Origin: Acetobacter lambici
GTDB lineage: Bacteria; Pseudomonadota; Alphaproteobacteria; Acetobacterales; Acetobacteraceae
DNA length: 64,000 nucleotides
Assembly: GCF_011516885.1 (NCBI RefSeq)
Contig: NZ_WOTD01000002.1
Location: 62,001-126,000, forward strand
Direction of reading: 5' to 3'
The notes under the pieces are model-generated. The model searched no databases. It was not told the DNA's origin and worked only from the letters and a program-made list of their open reading frames with translations. A program made the translations under genes and the position numbers. Positions 2,853 through 20,320 of the stretch are shown piece by piece. Positions within the stretch are counted from its first letter, which is position 1. The number at the start of each line of letters is the position of its first letter.

Positions 2853-3821
2853 ATGGCGAAACGTTCGCTTCTGGTGGGTTTTGGTGGGTTTCTGCCAGAA
2901 AGAGTTGTCACGAACGAAGAGCTGGCCACCCGGCTTGCCACATCGGATGACTGGATCAGAACCCGCACAGGCATTACCCGCCGCCATATTGCTGGCCCGG
3001 ATGACAGCGCAACAAGCATGGGGGCGCAAGCTGCACGCAGAGCGCTGGATTACGCGGGCCTGAGTGCGAGCGATATTGATGTTGTTCTGGTAGCAACGTC
3101 CACCCCCGATCAGGCATTCCCGGCAACAGCCGTGCGGATTCAGGCTGCTCTGGGCATGACCCACGGCTTTGGTTTTGATATTGCCGCAGCCTGTTCCGGT
3201 TTTATTTTTGCTCTGGCAACGGCGGATTCCTTTATCCGCTCCGGGCAGGTGCGCAACGCTCTGGTTATCGGGAGCGAAGTCTATTCCCGTATTGTGGACT
3301 GGGAAGACCGGGGCACATGCGTTCTGTTTGGCGATGGCGCGGGCGCTGTTGTGCTCTCCGCAGCGCAGGACGACTCCGACGGGCGTGGGATTTTATCCAC
3401 TCATCTGCATTCCGATGGCACAACGGGGGACCTGTTGTACGTGGATGGCGCAGTGGGGCAGCCAGAAAAAAGTGGCCACCTGAAAATGAGCGGGCGTGAT
3501 GTGTTCCGTCATGCCGTTGCCAAGCTTTCCTCCTCCGTTGATGAGGCTCTGAGTGCCGAAGGGCTGAGCTACGCGGATGTGGACTGGCTTGTGCCGCATC
3601 AGGCCAACATCCGCATTATTGAAGGTGTTGCCAAAAAGCTGGCGCTTCCAGCCGAACGTGTAGTTGTGACGGTTGACCGCCACGCCAACACGTCCGCGGC
3701 GTCCATTCCGCTTGCATTGGATGAAGCCGTGCGGGACGGGCGTATTCAGAAAGGCGAACTGGTGCTGATGGAAGCATTGGGCGGCGGTCTGACATGGGGT
3801 TCGGTGCTGGTTCGCCTGTAA
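2853..3821 (+). CDS. fabH: 3-oxoacyl-ACP synthase III (KAS III)
   Basis: 322 residues. FabH condenses acetyl-CoA with malonyl-ACP to start type II fatty-acid synthesis in the cytosol. The catalytic triad is complete: C114 in AAACSGFIFA, H249 in VPHQANIRI and N279 in HANTSAASIP. The start at 2853 (MAKRSLLVGFGGFLPE) gives the normal family length; an earlier in-frame start at 2799 would add 18 residues not expected in the family. An inverted repeat (CGCCTG/CAGGCG, 3813-3828) overlaps the stop but lacks a U-run. ihfA follows after 73 nt. Confidence 0.97.
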   Translation: MAKRSLLVGFGGFLPERVVTNEELATRLATSDDWIRTRTGITRRHIAGPDDSATSMGAQAARRALDYAGLSASDIDVVLVATSTPDQAFPATAVRIQAALGMTHGFGFDIAAACSGFIFALATADSFIRSGQVRNALVIGSEVYSRIVDWEDRGTCVLFGDGAGAVVLSAAQDDSDGRGILSTHLHSDGTTGDLLYVDGAVGQPEKSGHLKMSGRDVFRHAVAKLSSSVDEALSAEGLSYADVDWLVPHQANIRIIEGVAKKLALPAERVVVTVDRHANTSAASIPLALDEAVRDGRIQKGELVLMEALGGGLTWGSVLVRL

Positions 3822-3894
3822 TCAGGCGATAACAGACAAGTGACATCATTGTGAATGAATTGACGCGCCGCACAGGCGTGTTACCTTTCTGCAC

Positions 3895-4212
3895 ATGGAA
3901 ACTGTCACACGTGCATCTTTGATAGAGCAGATCTATCAGCAGGTAGGGTTGTCTCGTAAAGAGTCGTCTGTGCTCCTAGAAGATGTTCTGGAGACGGTCA
4001 TGCAGGCGCTTGAACGGGGCGAAAGTGTCAAAATCAGCGGTTTTGGCACGTTCTCTGTCCGTAAAAAGGGGCAGCGCTGCGGGCGCAACCCCAAAACAGG
4101 GGAAGAAGTGCCTATTCTTCCCCGCTCCGTTCTGGTGTTTCGTTCCAGCCAGTTGCTGAGGGCCGAAGTCAACCATGAGGAGACAGAGCCGGGAGTCGAG
4201 TATGACGATTGA
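3895..4212 (+). CDS. ihfA: Integration host factor subunit alpha
   Basis: A 105-residue HU/IHF fold protein. N-terminal helices (TRASLIEQIYQQVGLSRKES) are followed by [27 protein letters not shown], with the beta-arm proline in the RNPKTGE segment. Position after fabH and before a MerR gene is the usual ihfA context in alphaproteobacteria. IHF, a heterodimer with the ihfB product (9185-9475 here), bends DNA sharply at promoters, origins and recombination sites. The last 11 nt overlap the start of the MerR-type gene. Confidence 0.95.
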   Translation: METVTRASLIEQIYQQVGLSRKESSVLLEDVLETVMQALERGESVKISGFGTFSVRKKGQRCGRNPKTGEEVPILPRSVLVFRSSQLLRAEVNHEETEPGVEYDD

Positions 4213-4801
4213 TGGCACATTCCCCCCCAGTGAGTTCGCGCATGACATGCCTGACACAGGGGCGGATGTTATGGAGTCGGGGGGAATTGAAAAAGGCCCC
4301 CATGCATTCCGGACCATTAGTGAAGTAGCGGATGAACTGCATGTTCCCCAGTATACCCTGCGTTTGTGGGAGACACAGTTCCATCAGGTTCGCCCCTTAA
4401 AAAGAGGTGGCGGTCGACGGTACTACCGGCCGGACGATCTTGTGCTGCTCAGCCGGATTGCAGACCTGCTTTATAATCAGGGTTATACCGTAAAAGGTGT
4501 GCAACGCCTGTTGCAGGAAGGGCATGCGGAGCCGGAGGCGGCCCCCCTCCAGCCTGCGGCAAATACGGGTATTGAAGAAAATGGCGTGGCCGAACAGGCC
4601 ATGGTCGCCGAGAGTGATGATGTGCCGGTTGTGGCTGACTATGAGCAGGTGGAAGCCGTGGTGGCCCAGTTGCCAGCAGCGGTTGAGGCAGGCTTGGAAC
4701 AGGCTCTGGTGCAGGTTATGGGGCAGAATGTCCGCCTGCGTTCGGATCTGGCCGATGTGCTGGTTGAGCTTGAGGCCATTCGGCGCAAGATTCTGGCCTG
4801 A
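4202..4801 (+). CDS. MerR-family transcriptional regulator
   Basis: 199 residues. The start at 4202 overlaps the end of ihfA and has GGGAG about 6 nt upstream. A winged-helix MerR domain spans roughly residues 34-105: RTISEVADELHVPQYTLRLWE, then GGGRRYYRPDD and LLYNQGYTVKGVQRLL. The remainder is acidic and alanine/valine-rich with a predicted terminal helix (SDLADVLVELEAIRRKI), and no metal-binding cysteines are seen. This is the MerR gene that typically follows ihfA in alphaproteobacteria. Its targets are unknown; translational coupling to ihfA suggests co-expression. Confidence 0.9.
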   Translation: MTIDGTFPPSEFAHDMPDTGADVMESGGIEKGPHAFRTISEVADELHVPQYTLRLWETQFHQVRPLKRGGGRRYYRPDDLVLLSRIADLLYNQGYTVKGVQRLLQEGHAEPEAAPLQPAANTGIEENGVAEQAMVAESDDVPVVADYEQVEAVVAQLPAAVEAGLEQALVQVMGQNVRLRSDLADVLVELEAIRRKILA

Positions 4802-4879
4802 TTGATAAAAAAGTTAAAAAAAACGGGTGGAGTGGGTTGTGCTCTTCATGGGGTATTGCTAAACACCACCCACACTTAA

Positions 4880-4953
4880 CGGGCAGTAGCGCAGTCTGGT
4901 AGCGCATCAGTCTGGGGGACTGGGGGTCGTGGGTTCGAATCCCGCCTGCCCGA
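4880..4953 (+). tRNA. tRNA-Pro (anticodon GGG)
   Basis: The acceptor stem CGGGCAG (4880-4886) pairs with CTGCCCG (4946-4952), with A4953 as discriminator. The anticodon stem TCAGT/ACTGG encloses the 7-nt loop 4912-4918 with GGG at 4914-4916 after U33. A normal T-arm (GTGGGTTCGAATCCCGC) is present. The 3' CCA is not encoded. C1-G72 is typical of bacterial tRNA-Pro. Confidence 0.96.
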
Positions 4954-5000
4954 TATTTTTTCCGAAATGAAAATGCTAAATAACCCCACCCTTGGGGGGA

Positions 5001-5030
5001 AATGCAAAAGTCTTTTCAGACTTCTGCATT
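5001..5030 (-). terminator. Hairpin at the end of the permease gene
   Basis: AATGCA-A-AAGTCT and AGACTT-C-TGCATT form 6+6 bp around one A/C mismatch with a TTTC loop. It overlaps the stop codon of the minus-strand permease gene and lies just downstream of tRNA-Pro, so it could end transcripts from both sides. No clean U-run. Confidence 0.45.
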
Positions 5031-6134
5031 ATTTCCGTATGCCCAGCGCCGCCAGATCAGGTTGAGTGCTGCCATTGCGGCCGGGCCAATAAACAGGCCG
5101 ATCAGCCCCCACATTTCCGCACCACCTAAAATACCAAGCAGTACCCACAGGAACGGCAGTTTTGTTGTGCCGCCGATCAGGGTCGGGCGCACAAAGTGAT
5201 CGGCTACAAAAATTACCGTGGCCCCAATGCAGAATGTTACAATAGCCGCCACGGACGCGCCCGAGATCAAAATCAGAAGCGAGACCAGACCAATTGCGAT
5301 CATGGCGCAAAAAGGGATCATCGCGGCCACAGCCGTAATCACGCCAAACAGGGCAGGGTGTGGCGCATGGGCAAACAGATAGACAATCCCCATTAAGACG
5401 CCCTCACCAATACCCACCAGCACAAGCCCCTGCACGGAACCGTGAATGGAGGCGACAATCTGGCGGGCAATACTTTCGCCCCTGCGGCCAAAGGCCCGGC
5501 AGGAGGCAACGCGGCACTGGCGAATAACGGAAACACCGTCTTTATACAGAAAAAACAGTGTGAGAATGGAAAAGCAGAACAGTGTGCCCCGGTGCGCTAT
5601 CTGGCTGCCCAGTGCCCGTGTGACCATAACGCCCTTGCTATCCAGCGCTCCCAGCAGGCCCGAGACGTCGCGCGGGTTGGACAGGTGCGTTTCCCATAAA
5701 TGCGCAATACTCGCGGAGCCTATTGGTAAATGCTGGATAACATCGGGTACGGGCACGCCAAATTTGCGGGCATGGTCCAGCCATTCCAGCGCACTCTGGG
5801 CTTCCCCAATTGCTTCGAGGGTCAATAGGGTCAGGGGTATGACAAAGAGCAGCGCCATGACCGCTGTAAACAGCAGGGGGAGCAGCGTGCCGCGCGCAGC
5901 GTTTGGCCACATACGGCATGCGCGGCTGTAGAGCGGCCATGTGGCAATGGCAAAAACGCCCCCCCAAGCCAGAGCGGGCAGAAAGCCCTGCACGGTGTAA
6001 AGTGCGACGCCCACAATAAAGAGCGCAAGAAGACTGCGCGCCATTTCCTGTCCCCGCTTTGAGCGTTGGCTGGCCTTGATAAGGCCGCAACGCTGGTGGG
6101 CGGGCACTAACGAAGATGGAGGCGTATTGGGCAT
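5016..6134 (-). CDS. AI-2E family transporter (PerM/YdiK type)
   Basis: From the ATG at 6134 the product is 372 residues, normal for PF01594. The frame is open to 6317 but the extra N terminus is not family-like; another candidate start is 6044 (MARSLLALF). Several hydrophobic helices are visible: LLALFIVGVALYTVQGFLPAL, LLPLLFTAVMALLFVIPLTLL, then a soluble stretch, then GTLFCFSILTLFFLYK and a cluster of C-terminal helices including the conserved FGVITAVAAMIPF. These are inner-membrane permeases; characterised members export autoinducer-2 or act as Na+(Li+)/H+ antiporters, so the substrate cannot be read from sequence. It stands alone, convergent with tRNA-Pro and divergent from murJ. Confidence 0.85.
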   Translation of the reverse strand: MPNTPPSSLVPAHQRCGLIKASQRSKRGQEMARSLLALFIVGVALYTVQGFLPALAWGGVFAIATWPLYSRACRMWPNAARGTLLPLLFTAVMALLFVIPLTLLTLEAIGEAQSALEWLDHARKFGVPVPDVIQHLPIGSASIAHLWETHLSNPRDVSGLLGALDSKGVMVTRALGSQIAHRGTLFCFSILTLFFLYKDGVSVIRQCRVASCRAFGRRGESIARQIVASIHGSVQGLVLVGIGEGVLMGIVYLFAHAPHPALFGVITAVAAMIPFCAMIAIGLVSLLILISGASVAAIVTFCIGATVIFVADHFVRPTLIGGTTKLPFLWVLLGILGGAEMWGLIGLFIGPAAMAALNLIWRRWAYGNNAEV

Positions 6135-6334
6135 GCGCGATGTGTCTTTCCAATGGTTTTGTAAAGAGCGCTCTTTAGGTCTAGCGCGCAGCATACTGTG
6201 TTGTGGGTGAATAATATAGCATATGCGGTGGTGCGCGGTCTGGCGCCGCGCGGCAGGGTATGGATTGCCAGTATCTTTTTCTGAATTTATCTCTAGTGTT
6301 CCGCTGCTTGCCTGCACATTGAAGCGGATATCCC

Positions 6335-7885
6335 ATGCTCAGAAATTTTCTGACAGTTGGCGGCTGGACCATGCTCAGCCGCGTTCTTGGACTGATACGT
6401 GACCAGCTTCTGGCGGCCTTTATGGGGGCTGGTCCATTGCAGGATGCGTATCAGGTTGCTTTTCGCCTGCCCAATATGTTCCGCCGCCTGTTTGGGGAGG
6501 GCGCGTTCAATGCGGCTTTTGTGCCCATGTTCTCCACCGTTATGGTGCAGGATGGACGGGATGAGGCCCGGCTGTTTGCCCGCCGTACGCTGGGGGTCAT
6601 GCTTGCATGGCTGGTGTTTTTGTGTGTGCTGGGCGAAGTATTCATGCCGCAGGTATTACGGGTGATCGCGCCAGGTTTTTTGCAAAGCGGAGATCGCTAC
6701 AGTCTGGCGGTCAGCCTGAGCCGCATTACTTTTCCCTATTTGGTTATGATCTGTGCGGCGGCCCTGCTGGCCGGGGTGCTGAATGGTCTGCACCGTTTTG
6801 GCATGGCGTCCGCTGCTTATCTGGCATTCAACGTGGTCGGTATTATTGCCATTGTTGGGGCGTCCCCCTTCTTCCCCAGTGTTGCTTTTGCTGCGGCATG
6901 GGGGGTTACAGCCTCTGGCGTGGTGCAACTGGGGCTGCTGGCATGGGCGTGTGAGAAAGCCCAGTTTGGCCTTATGCCCCTTTGGCCGAAGTTAACGCCG
7001 CGTATTCGCCTTTTGTTGCGCCGTATGGTGCCGGGGCTGATTGGTAGTGGTGTCGGCCAGATCAATCTGACAGTGGATACCATTATTGGCACCCTGCTGC
7101 CTGCGGGTAGTGTGTCGCTCATGTATTTTGCGGACCGGATCAACCAGTTACCTCTAGGCGTGCTGGGCGCTGCGGCGGGTACAACCCTCCTGCCCGTGCT
7201 GACACGGCATTTGAGTGCAGGGGATATAGAAGGCGCGCATACGGCCCAGAACCGCTCTATGGAATATGTTGTGCTGCTCACCCTGCCTGCCGTTGCGGGG
7301 TTGCTGGTTCTGGCCGGCCCGATCATGATTGTTCTGTTCGGGCATGGTTCTTTTACCGAGCATGACGCATTGTTATCCGCCCAGTCCCTACGGGCTTATG
7401 CCATTGGGTTGCCTGCCTTTATTCTGGTCAAGGTGTTGTCTCCCGCCTTTTTTGCGCGGGGGGATACACGCACCCCCGTATATATCGGCATTGGCGTGCT
7501 GGTGCTGAACTTTATTCTGAACCTGCTGTTTATGAAGCCACTGGCGCATGTGGGGCCGCCGCTGGCCAGTAGTATTACGGCGTGCGTGAATGTGGCTTTT
7601 CTGGTGGTTCTGTTGCGGCGTAAAAAGGCTTTGCGCCTTTATGGCGCGACCCTCTCCCGCATGGGGCGTGTGTGCATTGCTGCGGCCATTATGGGGCTGG
7701 GGCTTTGGGGGCTGGGGGGCATTTTGCACCTTCCGGGCGTGTTTGTTACCCGGGCACTCTGGCTCAGTGGTATGGTCATGGGGGGAGCTGTGTTTTATGC
7801 AGCACTCCTGCATGCTCTGGGCGTGGTCAGCCTGTTTGCTTTGGTTGAACGTATTCAGGGGCGGTTGAAGCGCAAAGCGGGGTAG
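6335..7885 (+). CDS. murJ: Lipid II flippase MurJ
   Basis: 516 residues with about 13-14 hydrophobic helices. It starts MLRNFLTVGGWTMLSRVLGL and has the MurJ signature AFRLPNMFRRLFGEGAFNAAFVP at about residues 44-66. The Arg-rich face and the GEGAFN motif line the lipid II cavity in known MurJ proteins. MurJ moves the lipid-linked peptidoglycan precursor across the cytoplasmic membrane. It is divergent from the permease gene and is followed after 12 nt by the UdgX-type gene, so the two may be cotranscribed. Confidence 0.96.
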   Translation: MLRNFLTVGGWTMLSRVLGLIRDQLLAAFMGAGPLQDAYQVAFRLPNMFRRLFGEGAFNAAFVPMFSTVMVQDGRDEARLFARRTLGVMLAWLVFLCVLGEVFMPQVLRVIAPGFLQSGDRYSLAVSLSRITFPYLVMICAAALLAGVLNGLHRFGMASAAYLAFNVVGIIAIVGASPFFPSVAFAAAWGVTASGVVQLGLLAWACEKAQFGLMPLWPKLTPRIRLLLRRMVPGLIGSGVGQINLTVDTIIGTLLPAGSVSLMYFADRINQLPLGVLGAAAGTTLLPVLTRHLSAGDIEGAHTAQNRSMEYVVLLTLPAVAGLLVLAGPIMIVLFGHGSFTEHDALLSAQSLRAYAIGLPAFILVKVLSPAFFARGDTRTPVYIGIGVLVLNFILNLLFMKPLAHVGPPLASSITACVNVAFLVVLLRRKKALRLYGATLSRMGRVCIAAAIMGLGLWGLGGILHLPGVFVTRALWLSGMVMGGAVFYAALLHALGVVSLFALVERIQGRLKRKAG

Positions 7886-15882: not shown

Positions 15883-16878
15883 ATGGCTTCTCCACGGCTA
15901 GTGGCGGTCCAGATGGACCCGCTTGAGCATGTTAATATTGATGGGGATTCAACCTTTGCCCTGATGCTGGAAGCACAGGCGCGCGGGCATAGCCTGTTTG
16001 TGTACGAAGTGGGGTCCATGGCCCTTGATGAAGGGACCGTGGAAGCAGGGGGCGCGACCCGCACCGATGTAACGGCGCTGGTACGCCCGGTGACCGTGCA
16101 GCGCGAAAAAGGACGGCACGCCACTTTTGGTGAGGCCACACGTCGGTCCCTGCGAACAATGGATGTGGTGCTCATGCGCCAGGACCCACCATTTGACATG
16201 GCTTATATTACCGCCACGCATATGCTCGACCATATTCATGGCATAGGTCCGGATCAGGCTCTGGTGGTCAACGACCCGCGCTGGGTGCGTGACAGCCCGG
16301 AAAAACTTCTGGTCACGCACTTCCCCCAGCTTATGCCACCAACACTCGTGACGTGGGATATTGAGCAGATTCGGGCGTTCCGCACCAAATGGAAGGACAT
16401 TATTGTCAAACCGCTATTTGGTAACGGCGGGAGTGGTGTCTTCCGGATCAAAGCAGATGACCAGAACCTGAATGCCCTGCTGGAAATGCACTTTGCCCGC
16501 TCGCGCGAACCCCTTATGATCCAGCGGTACGAACCTGCCGTAACAGCAGGGGACAAGCGCGTTATTCTGGTGGACGGCAAGCCGATAGGCGCTATCAACC
16601 GCGTGCCATCGGGGGATGACCATCGGTCTAACATGCATGTGGGGGGTGTTGCGCGCAAAGTGGAACTCAGTGCGCGTGATCACGAGATTTGTGAGGCAAT
16701 CGGGCCGTTTCTTCAAGAACATGGCCTGATTTTTGTCGGTATTGATGTTATTGGGCAGTATCTGACGGAAATCAACGTGACATCGCCCACCGGTTTGCAG
16801 GAACTGGAAAGGTTTGATGGCATTAATGGTGCCGCCAGCATATGGGATTGTATTGAACGTAAGCTGTCTGTCCAATAA
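15883..16878 (+). CDS. gshB: Glutathione synthetase
   Basis: 331 residues, an ATP-grasp enzyme that joins gamma-glutamylcysteine to glycine. N-terminal QMDPLEHVNIDGDSTFALM is the prokaryotic GshB signature. VLMRQDPPFDMAYIT marks the substrate domain, KPLFGNGGSGVFRI (about 169-182) binds ATP, and the C-terminal IDVIGQYLTEINVTSPTGLQE carries the Mg ligands. Length is normal. It stands 81 nt after the GT39 gene; the shared strand does not prove an operon. Glutathione is relevant to the Atm1-type exporter encoded at 37036-38841. Confidence 0.97.
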   Translation: MASPRLVAVQMDPLEHVNIDGDSTFALMLEAQARGHSLFVYEVGSMALDEGTVEAGGATRTDVTALVRPVTVQREKGRHATFGEATRRSLRTMDVVLMRQDPPFDMAYITATHMLDHIHGIGPDQALVVNDPRWVRDSPEKLLVTHFPQLMPPTLVTWDIEQIRAFRTKWKDIIVKPLFGNGGSGVFRIKADDQNLNALLEMHFARSREPLMIQRYEPAVTAGDKRVILVDGKPIGAINRVPSGDDHRSNMHVGGVARKVELSARDHEICEAIGPFLQEHGLIFVGIDVIGQYLTEINVTSPTGLQELERFDGINGAASIWDCIERKLSVQ

Positions 16879-17025
16879 GAGCCTTTCAGGCTGTGGTGGG
16901 CAGTACCATGGCCTAAAAAAAGTATGCTGCCACACATGGGCGCTTTTGTGGTGTGTGCGCCAAGCAGGAAGGAAGAGAGTATAGTGGCTCTTGAAGAAAT
17001 GTCCGTCAGCGGGCAGAGAGAGAAC

Positions 17026-17721
17026 ATGAGTGACGTTCTCCAAGAATACCCCTCCGGCGGAGGGGAAAGCCCCGTACCTCCTCCCTCGCGTTCTGCGCTT
17101 GATGCGGAGGCCGTCAAACTGGCCTATCGGCGTTGGGCCAATGTTTATGACGTGGCGTTTGGCGGCATTTCCCGTTTTGGTCGCCTGCGGGCGGTGGACG
17201 CGGTCAATAACCTGCCCGGCACGGATGTGCTGGAAGTCGGGGTGGGTACCGGTCTGGCGTTGCCCCATTATACCAAGGTCAAGGCCATTACCGGCATTGA
17301 CCTCTCGACCGACATGCTGGCCAAGGCCCGTGAACGCGCCAAGCGCGACAGTCTGGCAAACGTGAATGCCCTGCTGGAAATGGACGCCGAGGACACCACG
17401 TTCGAAGATAATTCCTTTGATATCGCGGTGGCCATGTTTGTTGCGTCCGTTGTGCCGCATCCGCGCAAGCTGCTGCGGGAGCTCAAACGCGTTGTGCGTC
17501 CGGGTGGGCATATTCTGTTCGTAAACCACTTTCTGGCCCCCGGTGGTCTGCGTGGCGCTGTGGAACATGCCATGGCGCGCGCCTCTCACTCGCTCGGCTG
17601 GCACCCCGATTTTGCCATGGAATCGCTGCTCCCGCAGGAAGACATTGCACGGGCCACCATTCAGCCTGTACGGCCGTTTGGCCTCTTCACGCTGGTTACG
17701 CTGGAAAACCTGCCAGAATAA
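17026..17721 (+). CDS. pmtA: Phosphatidylethanolamine N-methyltransferase (Rhodobacter PmtA type)
   Basis: From ATG 17026 the product is 231 residues; the frame extends to 16924 and a GTG at 16984 is another candidate. The SAM-binding motif VLEVGVGTGLALP (about 68-80) and the acidic ribose-binding GIDLS (90-94) are clear, with DNSFDIAVAMFVASVVPHP and RVVRPGGHILFVNHF following. KLAYRRWANVYDVAFG is the PmtA family N-terminal signature. The enzyme methylates phosphatidylethanolamine three times to make phosphatidylcholine at the inner membrane, a major lipid of acetic acid bacteria. It is monocistronic by context and is followed by a hairpin. Confidence 0.9.
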   Translation: MSDVLQEYPSGGGESPVPPPSRSALDAEAVKLAYRRWANVYDVAFGGISRFGRLRAVDAVNNLPGTDVLEVGVGTGLALPHYTKVKAITGIDLSTDMLAKARERAKRDSLANVNALLEMDAEDTTFEDNSFDIAVAMFVASVVPHPRKLLRELKRVVRPGGHILFVNHFLAPGGLRGAVEHAMARASHSLGWHPDFAMESLLPQEDIARATIQPVRPFGLFTLVTLENLPE

Positions 17722-17730
17722 TAAACATGT

Positions 17731-17754
17731 GCGCTCCTGTTTTGGCAGGGGCGC
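17731..17754 (+). terminator. Hairpin downstream of pmtA
   Basis: GCGCTCCTG and CAGGGGCGC form a 9-bp stem with one G/U pair and a TTTTGG loop, 9 nt after the pmtA stop. No T-run follows immediately, so termination strength is uncertain. Confidence 0.45.
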
Positions 17755-17874
17755 TAGACATGCGTGGCTTGGCCGGGCGCTTTTGTGCAATAAAACACTA
17801 GAATATGGTCGTTTTTTGTCTAGCAGGTTCAAAGTTCTCCTTCATGGACCTGCACAGAATATGGAACATGGAGC

Positions 17875-19143
17875 ATGATCTCCGCTCATAGCCAGTCTAA
17901 CCAGCACCTTGCCATGGTGGAAAAAACCGCCAGCCAACGGCAGGATGCGGCAGCCGGAACAGCCTATCTGCTACTTGCAGCCATTGCGGCCCTTGTGGGG
18001 GGTGGTGTTTCCGTTCTGGCTGGCATGGGCATGCTGCCCGCAGCAGGGCTGTGGGGCAGGCTTGCGCAGGCTCACCCGGCTCTGATGCTGCTGTACGTTG
18101 TGGTGCCAGCACTTGTTAGTGGTTTTGGCACGCTGTGGTTGCCTCGTGCTCTGGGGCGGCAGAGCATGTTGCTCGGGCGGCTCAATCTGCTGGCCGTGGG
18201 TGTGTTGGGCGTGGCTGCCGTGTTGACCTGCACTTTGGCCGATGCACGGTTGGCCCATGTTCTGTGGTCACTGGGTGCGCTCATGTCCGCTGTGGTGCTG
18301 CTGAGCACTATTTTTGACAGTTGTGCGGATAGTCTGGAGCAGACCTCTTTTTCTCCCTTCGTGTGGGGGGAAATGCTGTCTTCTACGGTTCTTCTGCTGT
18401 GTGCGCCGGTTTTTGCGGCGGCAACGCTGCGCGCGTGGCTGTGGCCTGCGACCAACGCCATGGTTGGTGCCGAATATTTTGCAGTTCCCGTCGGGTTGAT
18501 CGTGCTGCTGGCCGGGTTCGGTATCGTGTTTGAAATGGCCGCCAGTATCGGGCAGGTCCAGACACGGCCTGTTGCCTATATTATGGCGGCTACCGCTGCG
18601 TCTGGCGTGGTGGCGTGGGCTAAAAGCAGTCTGGCGCATGGGGCCGATAGCCTGACCGCGCAGATGGTTGGCAATGTTCTGCTAGCACTGTGTTCCCTCT
18701 CCGCCGTCTGCCTTGCCGGTCTTTGGCTTGCTGGTACGTGGAAGGCGCGGGTTTCGTTGCGTACGCCTTTGCTGTGGGGCATGGGCTTTCTGGCCGTTGT
18801 GGCCGGTGGCTGGGTTGTTCAGCTTGTTCAGGGCACGGGTTTGCACCCGGCCTTGCAGCTTGGTGCTCTTTATGCCGTGTGTGGTGGGTTTTATCTGTGG
18901 CGGGGCGAGGCCTGTGGCTTCTGGTACCCCCAGAAGCTGGCCCGCCTTCATTTTGTGCTCACTGCAGTAGCAACGCTCTGCCTGTTTGTTTCTGGCATGC
19001 AGGTGCTGGGTTGCGCCCTGTTTGGTATGGCTGCTCTGGTGTTTGTGCTGGCGGCATTTATCAGCTTCCAGCGCGACATTCCGGTGCCTGCCGGTACTCT
19101 TGCTGTGGCGCAGGCTGATGCCGCCGGGGGAGCCGCCGCATGA
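17875..19143 (+). CDS. Degenerate CtaD-like protein: oxidase subunit I homologue without the haem-copper centre
   Basis: 422 residues, shorter than normal subunit I (about 530-550), with about 10-12 hydrophobic helices. By-eye alignment to CtaD runs along most of the length: GTAYLLLAAIAALVGG (helix I), AHPALMLLYVVVPALVSGFG (helix II), PFVWGEMLSSTVLLL (helix V), LIVLLAGFGIV (VI), VVAWAKSS (VII), LRTPLLWGMGFL, LHPALQLGALYAV (X) and LARLHFVLT. H67 and H324 align with the two low-spin haem ligands. The CuB ligands are gone: the HPEVY motif reads VPVGL and the helix VII HH pair reads K250-S251. The high-spin haem ligand is G322. The Tyr, the helix VI Glu and the helix VIII Lys are also missing. 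Its stop overlaps the ctaB start as ATGA. A respiratory oxidase role is excluded; a single-haem protein is inferred. Confidence 0.8.
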   Translation: MISAHSQSNQHLAMVEKTASQRQDAAAGTAYLLLAAIAALVGGGVSVLAGMGMLPAAGLWGRLAQAHPALMLLYVVVPALVSGFGTLWLPRALGRQSMLLGRLNLLAVGVLGVAAVLTCTLADARLAHVLWSLGALMSAVVLLSTIFDSCADSLEQTSFSPFVWGEMLSSTVLLLCAPVFAAATLRAWLWPATNAMVGAEYFAVPVGLIVLLAGFGIVFEMAASIGQVQTRPVAYIMAATAASGVVAWAKSSLAHGADSLTAQMVGNVLLALCSLSAVCLAGLWLAGTWKARVSLRTPLLWGMGFLAVVAGGWVVQLVQGTGLHPALQLGALYAVCGGFYLWRGEACGFWYPQKLARLHFVLTAVATLCLFVSGMQVLGCALFGMAALVFVLAAFISFQRDIPVPAGTLAVAQADAAGGAAA

Positions 19144-20099
19144 GTGAAGCAAGCCTTTCCGAACCCAAAGCAAGGCGGCCACGGTTTAAAACAGAACAGG
19201 TTGGCACGCAGGCGCGTGACTGGCTGGCGTTGCTCAAGCCCCGAGTGATTTCGCTTGTTGTGTTTACGGGTGCGGCGGGCATGTTTATGGCACCGGGGCA
19301 TCTGGACCCGTTTGTGGGGCTGGTTACCATATTCTGCATCTGTCTGGCCTCGGGCGCTGCCGGGGCCATTAACATGTGGTACGACCGTGATATTGACGCG
19401 GTCATGCAGCGGACTATTACACGGCCTGTTCCTTCGGGGCGTATCCCCCAGAACGAGGCACTGGCTTACGGGGTTGGTCTTTCCTGTCTGTCTGTCTGTC
19501 TGATGTGGATTGCCACAAACACGTTGGCTGCCGCTATTCTGGCATTTTCCATTTTCTTCTATTCCGTCATTTATACCATGTGGCTCAAGCGCTCCACGCC
19601 ACAGAACATCGTGATTGGTGGAGCCGCGGGGGCCTTCCCCCCCATGATCGGCTGGGCGGCTGCCACCGGGCATATGGCCGTTATGCCCGTTGTCATGTTT
19701 GGTATTGTGTTCTTCTGGACGCCGCCGCACTTCTGGTCTTTGGCACTGTATGCCTGCAAGGATTACGGACGTGCGGGTATTCCCATGCTGCCAGTTGTGC
19801 GCGGCGTGCGGCATACGCGTTGGCAGATATTTTTCTATACTCTGGTTTTGCTGGCAGTCTCCCTTATCCCGTCTTTTGTCGGGGCAAGTGGGTGGATCTA
19901 CACGGTCACGGCGGTCGTGCTGGGGCTTGGCTTTGTGGCCTGCGCGGTGCGCGTGCTGCTGGAGCCGCAGGATGAAAATGGTGTCAGCCAGAAGGGAGAT
20001 AGGGCAGCCCGGATATCGTTCCGGTTCTCGCTGGCGTATCTTTTCTTCCTGTTCTGCGGCCTTCTGGGCGACCACTTCTTTCAGATATGGATGCACTGA
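19140..20099 (+). CDS. ctaB: Protoheme IX farnesyltransferase (haem O synthase)
   Basis: 319 residues, polytopic UbiA-superfamily prenyltransferase. It adds a farnesyl group to haem B to give haem O, required by cytochrome bo3 quinol oxidase. The prenyl-diphosphate/Mg motif N78xxxD82xxxD86 is intact, as is the second conserved part YTMWLKRSTPQNIVIGG. A soluble basic N terminus (about 30 residues) precedes the first helix. The start overlaps the stop of the CtaD-like gene by 4 nt, so the two are translated together. No ctaA, subunit II/III or ctaG gene is next to it, which fits an organism that uses haem O but not an aa3 oxidase. Confidence 0.96.
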   Translation: MSEASLSEPKARRPRFKTEQVGTQARDWLALLKPRVISLVVFTGAAGMFMAPGHLDPFVGLVTIFCICLASGAAGAINMWYDRDIDAVMQRTITRPVPSGRIPQNEALAYGVGLSCLSVCLMWIATNTLAAAILAFSIFFYSVIYTMWLKRSTPQNIVIGGAAGAFPPMIGWAAATGHMAVMPVVMFGIVFFWTPPHFWSLALYACKDYGRAGIPMLPVVRGVRHTRWQIFFYTLVLLAVSLIPSFVGASGWIYTVTAVVLGLGFVACAVRVLLEPQDENGVSQKGDRAARISFRFSLAYLFFLFCGLLGDHFFQIWMH

Positions 20100-20101
20100 G
20101 T

Positions 20102-20239
20102 ATGACCACACTCCCCCTAACCCAGACACCAGAGCAGCTTGAACGGCAAAAGCGCCAGAGCCAGCGTGTGCGGAGTATGGTTGTGTTCATGCTTGTGCTG
20201 GCCGGGATTATGTTCGGGTTAACGCTGTTCCATCCGTAA
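20102..20239 (+). CDS. CoxF-like small membrane protein
   Basis: 45 residues: a polar, basic N terminus (TPEQLERQKRQSQRVRS) and one hydrophobic helix (MVVFMLVLAGIMFGLTLF) ending HP. It starts 2 nt after the ctaB stop. Size, topology and place match the CoxF-type protein found between ctaB and ctaG in alphaproteobacterial cytochrome oxidase operons, of unknown function. Here ctaG and subunit III are absent after it. The gene is credible because of coupling and a strong terminator downstream; its name rests on context. Confidence 0.7.
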   Translation: MTTLPLTQTPEQLERQKRQSQRVRSMVVFMLVLAGIMFGLTLFHP

Positions 20240-20320
20240 TACGATGGAACGCTCCGGCTGGCGGTTGATAAAGGCTATACGGCCTGACGGAATATTTGAT
20301 CACCAAGGATTACAGACGTA

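Follow-up and report, generated by a model that had tools for sequence, protein, structure and literature searches.

A cytochrome oxidase subunit I-like protein encoded beside ctaB in acetic acid bacteria keeps both low-spin haem histidine positions under purifying selection

Acetobacter species carry a gene related to ctaD, encoding subunit I of aa3 cytochrome c oxidase (COX1), directly beside the haem O synthase gene ctaB. The ctaD of A. pasteurianus was reportedly judged non-functional by Matsutani in 2014 through its accumulated mutations, with ctaA and ctaB shown to work. A further paper describes a 'deranged COX1-like protein' by ctaB in Acetobacter as being without any metal ligands, and suggests that this CtaD-like protein stabilises CtaB in the membrane (PMC10715153). 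In other papers, ctaA and ctaB are called remnants of an oxidase cluster (PMC6915089), the subunit is called an incomplete and probably inactive oxidase (PMC3751514), and ctaD is listed as conserved in three A. pasteurianus strains (PMC5158111). No report of retained low-spin haem ligands in this protein, or of selection acting on it, was found in a literature search that left most subscription journals outside its range. Five respiratory terms were absent from the text of the one genome-wide Gluconobacter screen consulted (PMC12041372).

Two further systems are relevant for comparison. CyoB, subunit I of bo3 quinol oxidase, belongs to the same superfamily and has the same low-spin His pair as the protein described here, but the CyoB of this genome (L001) differs from it in keeping every metal ligand checked. 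SURF1 proteins (Surf1c and Surf1q) resemble it in the role proposed below, the carriage of haem to a haem-copper oxidase, although SURF1 belongs to a different Pfam family, PF02104 rather than PF00115. In Paracoccus, SURF1 includes Surf1q, the haem chaperone of ba3 quinol oxidase (PMC5249081).

The window analysed here is a stretch of 64,000 nucleotides from Acetobacter lambici (NZ_WOTD01000002.1, positions 62,001 to 126,000). The genes relevant to this analysis are as follows.

15883..16878, + strand: glutathione synthetase (context)
16924..17721, + strand: SAM methyltransferase, PmtA-like, below the NCBIfam cut-off (context)
17875..19143, + strand: CtaD-like, putatively one-haem protein of 422 aa, named CtaD' here (open reading frame and family comparison)
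19140..20099, + strand: ctaB, haem O synthase (protohaem farnesyltransferase), overlapping the CtaD' gene by 4 nt (profile matches)

The gene is very probably the same as the mutated ctaD or 'deranged COX1-like protein' of Acetobacter, which likewise lies next to ctaB. An initial annotation of the window had read it as a 422-residue subunit I paralogue. This reading is borne out by a COX1-like AF2 model and by a match to Pfam PF00115 of 52.8 bits (cut-off 34.8), which places CtaD' among the homologues in the haem-copper oxidase superfamily. Its match to the aa3 CtaD equivalog TIGR02891 is weak, at 51.8 bits against a cut-off of 670.75. The best solved relatives found by phmmer are aa3 oxidase subunits I, with 3om3_A from R. 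sphaeroides at E 9.4e-17. The alignment to CtaD proposed by eye for helices I, II and V-X held, and homology further reaches helices XI-XII, where CtaD' is shorter. The median frame of the family is 431 aa, compared with 530-606 for true CtaD. The AF2 model, built from 22 Acetobacter sequences (pLDDT 78.8, pTM 0.80), has 12 long helices and one short low-confidence C-terminal helix, and Foldseek places it onto COX1 (8ugh_4A) with E 3.6e-10 and TMq 0.77. CtaD' is hence predicted to have the 12-helix subunit I fold. A weak scan for a sigma-70 promoter of CtaD' found none within 17600-20300.

CtaD' belongs to a family present across Acetobacteraceae. A protein scan of 397 Acetobacteraceae genomes gave a match in 364, true CtaD among them, and a contig scan gave 22 Acetobacter loci. 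From these and additional regions, 112 candidate loci (L006-L117) were picked, mainly out of the listed matches, the criteria being score and a frame length below that of true CtaD. A single intact frame adjoining ctaB is found in 110 of these. One copy (L079) is cut by a contig end, and the sole interrupted copy is L055 in A. papayae JCM 25143 (6001-7312). The L055 match spans three frames in a draft genome, where a sequencing error is possible. Adding 15 more divergent copies brought the total to 125, covering 118 distinct sequences and 20 genus codes; the 125 rows thus include 7 repeated sequences, and some genomes may share species with named loci. One member, L026, carries a long N-terminal extension of the frame, reaching 701 aa.

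A quick-search tree was built from 51 rows of the family together with 16 CtaD and two CyoB; several of its end branches are long, and uneven composition was flagged. The family occupies one side of a split supported at SH-aLRT 99, making a single origin the simplest reading. At E 1e-102, 385 genomes sampled from the class yielded four matches, of which three are Acetobacteraceae copies and the fourth, in G742 (L190), has all the COX motifs of true CtaD. This threshold misses divergent copies (E to ~2e-40, as in G056) and says nothing on absence elsewhere. A wide spread outside the bacterial family is unsupported by these 385 genomes at E 1e-102, as the one match other than Acetobacteraceae copies has the motifs of a true CtaD.

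The positions that distinguish CtaD' from an oxidase, together with those it shares with one, are listed below in window coordinates.

18073..18075, + strand: H67 codon, at the low-spin haem ligand position of helix II (His in 125/125 members and 16/16 CtaD)
18364..18366, + strand: codon of invariant W164, helix V (125/125)
18484..18498, + strand: VPVGL (204-208) in place of HPEVY, with loss of a CuB His, the helix VI Glu and the cross-linked Tyr
18616..18618, + strand: codon of invariant W248, helix VII (125/125)
18622..18627, + strand: K250-S251, replacing the CuB HH pair (alignment)
18838..18840, + strand: G322, replacing the high-spin haem His (His in 2/125 at this column)
18844..18846, + strand: H324 codon, at the low-spin haem ligand position of helix X (His in 125/125 members and 16/16 CtaD)

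H67 and H324, which we take to correspond to H102 and H421 in R. sphaeroides numbering, fall on the low-spin ligand positions in the phmmer alignment to 3om3_A. In the predicted model, H67 lies within helix 59-92 and H324 sits at the start of helix 323-346. In a MAFFT alignment whose reference rows were 16 true CtaD plus one or two CyoB, both positions are His in every copy of CtaD'. The suggestion that this pair had been kept as low-spin ligands is thereby extended from one protein to the whole family, and the free variation among orthologues that would have spoken against it is not seen. The codons mix CAT and CAC at both positions (80 and 45 copies at H67, 96 and 29 at H324), so silent changes do occur. 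An alignment artefact can be ruled out, as a profile made from true CtaD alone identifies the same ligands and their spacing is fixed. With that profile, 124 of the 125 copies show His at the helix II ligand and one has a gap; at the helix X ligand, 104 show His and 21 have gaps. A residue other than His appears at neither position in any copy. As a partial check on whether the two His lie on the right helix faces, the distances from H67 to P90 (23 residues) and from H324 to W342 (18 residues) are identical in all 125 copies and equal those in the 16 CtaD.

The oxygen-reducing centre has fared differently. The window's copy reads V204, K250 and S251 at the three CuB His positions, G322 at the high-spin haem His (H419) and L280 at the K-channel Lys. 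For this copy, the initial annotation was therefore right that every ligand of the centre is replaced and that the cross-linked Tyr, helix VI Glu and K-channel Lys are missing. Across the family this complete set of losses is not universal, as the first His of the HH pair (H333) is kept in 46 of 125 copies and the helix VI Glu in 60. The other positions are more uniform, with H284 retained in 0/125, H334 in 10/125, and both the Tyr and the K-channel Lys in 0/125. CtaD' therefore resembles aa3 CtaD in descent, predicted fold (TM 0.77), low-spin His pair and position before ctaB, but differs in having no full CuB site, high-spin ligand, cross-linked Tyr or K-channel Lys, as well as in its shorter frame. 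In the small-genome group with genus code g32 (L137, L140-L149), 10 of the 11 copies carry H at the second CuB His column and the first column reads D, which may reflect chance or a shifted alignment.

The contrast between the two sites is clearest against the rest of the protein. Among 126 columns invariant across 16 CtaD and two CyoB, median retention in the CtaD' family is 24%, and only four columns are kept in all 125 copies, namely W164, W248, H67 and H324. The chance of both low-spin His being among these four is 7.6e-4, a rough figure as the columns are non-independent. When 45 representatives were aligned separately, these columns again proved invariant, joined by P205, which is kept in 110/110 rows of one alignment and in 92% of a larger one. 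Such a pattern would arise if the protein still used one haem site but no longer the oxygen site, and we judge it probable that CtaD' binds one bis-His haem, as the ligand positions suggest.

Other features of the haem pocket are less well preserved. In COX, arginines of the XI-XII loop bind the haem propionates. The alignment lacks this arginine pair for 123 of the 125 CtaD' copies, which weakens the case for a pocket. The stretch before H324 is shortened from 38 to 23-25 residues in 99/125, and a shorter periplasmic side may expose the haem more than in COX. R52, presumably the Arg that binds the formyl group of haem a, is Arg in only 12 of the 125 copies. A third His (H359 of the query), within an LHF motif that precedes helix XI, occurs in 100/125.

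The published accounts raise the question of whether CtaD' is merely the decaying remainder of a COX operon that was lost, persisting by chance or through translational coupling to ctaB. Such a relic would account for its place in the ctaD-ctaB position of true COX loci, for its absence from one genome with ctaB (G001) and for the interrupted copy in L055, and the gene is treated in print as non-functional or deranged (PMC10715153, and reportedly Matsutani in 2014). However, dN/dS for CtaD' in five clades is 0.106, 0.120, 0.078, 0.105 and 0.093 under one codon model (GY+F3X4). The corresponding values for ctaB are 0.021, 0.019, 0.031, 0.040 and 0.039, where the control of one clade covers 196 codons owing to a truncated locus. 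CtaD' values are hence 2.4 to 6.3 times those of ctaB, but constraint is still clear. In addition, the frame has been maintained at a median pairwise identity of 25% among the 45 representatives, with 110 of the 112 candidate loci intact, and two haem ligands have stayed invariant. Interruption of orthologues, a possible sign of pseudogenes, is limited to one locus in 112, with one more cut by a contig end. A relic is therefore highly improbable, and CtaD' is, in our judgement, almost certainly a conserved functional protein. The earlier argument that selective loss of one metal centre is unlike random decay is supported by the invariant His pair together with dN/dS of 0.08-0.12.

The genomic context also bears on function. 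The downstream gene is recognised as ctaB by NF003349 at 342 bits (cut-off 246) and by TIGR01473 at 330 bits (cut-off 210), and ctaB lies directly 3' of CtaD' in all 125 copies, with a 4-nt overlap in 94. In true COX loci ctaB follows ctaD in 15 of 16, the sixteenth having no ctaB found, and the 4-nt overlap occurs in 0/15. This coupling would fit a structural partner that merely stabilises CtaB in the membrane, with any haem being structural, as has been proposed in print (PMC10715153). By itself, this explanation does not account for the invariance of exactly two haem ligands at such low identity. It is also at odds with G001, where ctaB and two oxidases are present and CtaD' was not found. 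There, a locus on the minus strand (L169, ~3137-6049) runs glutathione synthetase, methyltransferase, ctaB in the same order as in the window, at 66%, 69% and 61% identity, respectively, with no CtaD' between the last two. CtaB can therefore manage without CtaD' in that genome, and a purely structural partner seems unlikely. In G007, G012 and G031, ctaB lies at a contig end, so these genomes are not usable for judging the absence of CtaD'.

CtaD' also co-occurs with haem-copper oxidases. A full-length haem-copper oxidase is present in 31/31 CtaD' genomes among 40 scanned. The window's own genome carries a full-length oxidase subunit I with all checked ligands (C3, 480 bits, 705-aa frame). A further PF00115 member in this genome (L002, G000:C78:3376-4734, 175 bits, 794-aa frame) is one we take to be NOR-like. 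Five genomes of 1.7-2.1 Mb (G210, G029, G066, G070, G116) have neither a CtaD' match nor a ctaB above the TIGR01473 cut-off; two of these have no PF00115 match and the other three have one distant NOR-like match each. CtaA was found in 39 of 74 CtaD' genomes and had no match in 35, indicating that haem A is not required. A haem A-specific role was considered and is ruled against by this distribution and by the rare retention of R52.

SURF1 (PF02104) had no match in 29/29 CtaD' genomes searched, and was matched in three of eight other genomes. Among 14 control genomes it was found in only two, and E. coli and B. subtilis have none despite having haem-copper oxidases. SURF1 is thus commonly missing, and its absence alone demands no replacement. 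Hence, the absence of SURF1 from CtaD' genomes points only weakly to haem delivery.

CtaD' is best read, from its sequence, as a repurposed single-haem membrane protein, in line with the initial annotation. This is supported by the family-wide retention of the low-spin site together with purifying selection, with haem binding deduced from the ligands. Of the roles suggested earlier (electron transfer, haem storage and haem delivery), delivery fits the context best, given that ctaB is adjacent in every copy. Our main reading, to which we assign a probability of roughly 0.46, is that CtaD' is a bis-His partner of CtaB that takes haem O (or haem B) and shields it or passes it to a quinol oxidase. 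It draws on homology, predicted fold, ligand retention, selection, coupling to ctaB and co-occurrence with oxidases, while delivery is the hypothesis added to these. Against it count G001, which has ctaB and two oxidases but no CtaD', the missing XI-XII arginines, the higher dN/dS than in ctaB and the interrupted copy in L055. The starting point would have been subunit I of an aa3 cytochrome c oxidase, whose oxygen-reducing centre was lost, most simply in a single event, in an ancestral acetic acid bacterium. Selection would since have kept it as a 12-helix membrane protein with one bis-His haem site at H67 and H324. Produced together with CtaB, CtaD' would take from it the farnesylated haem, probably haem O but possibly haem B. 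The old low-spin pocket would hold this haem and, by descent, could house the farnesyl tail. CtaD' would then shield the haem or hand it to apo bo3 or ba3 quinol oxidase. A more specific form of this proposal, in which an oxidase catalytic subunit has turned into a farnesylated-haem carrier, acting as a haem O chaperone that replaces SURF1 and loads bo3 or ba3 from CtaB, is rather doubtful.

Two other uses of a single haem site should be weighed against this partner of CtaB. CtaD' may act on haem O or haem B as a buffer or sensor, limiting the free haem that CtaB produces but not delivering it. This shares all of the evidence above, and storage and delivery are not told apart by these data. 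Against this role, no added regulatory domain was seen, PF00115 being the sole Pfam match at E up to 1; we consider it improbable overall. Alternatively, CtaD' may be a one-haem electron-transfer protein, such as a quinol- or cytochrome-linked b-type cytochrome. The retained site is that of the low-spin, electron-transferring haem of COX and the predicted fold is kept. However, no redox partner gene is known to adjoin CtaD', ctaB being the only neighbour checked in all 125 copies, and the missing XI-XII arginines also count against this role, making it quite improbable.

The analysis corrects the printed description of a deranged and ligand-less protein (PMC10715153), as this gene, found across acetic acid bacteria, has invariant low-spin ligands and is under purifying selection. 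How exactly haem a is inserted into cytochrome c oxidase, and by which players, is described as unresolved (PMC5249081), and a related question concerns the transfer of haem O to quinol oxidases. A conserved remnant with one putative haem site beside the haem O synthase, in industrial and genetically tractable bacteria, would make haem transfer directly testable. If the proposed reading is true, CtaD' would be an example of an electron-transfer haem site outliving the catalytic site of its enzyme.
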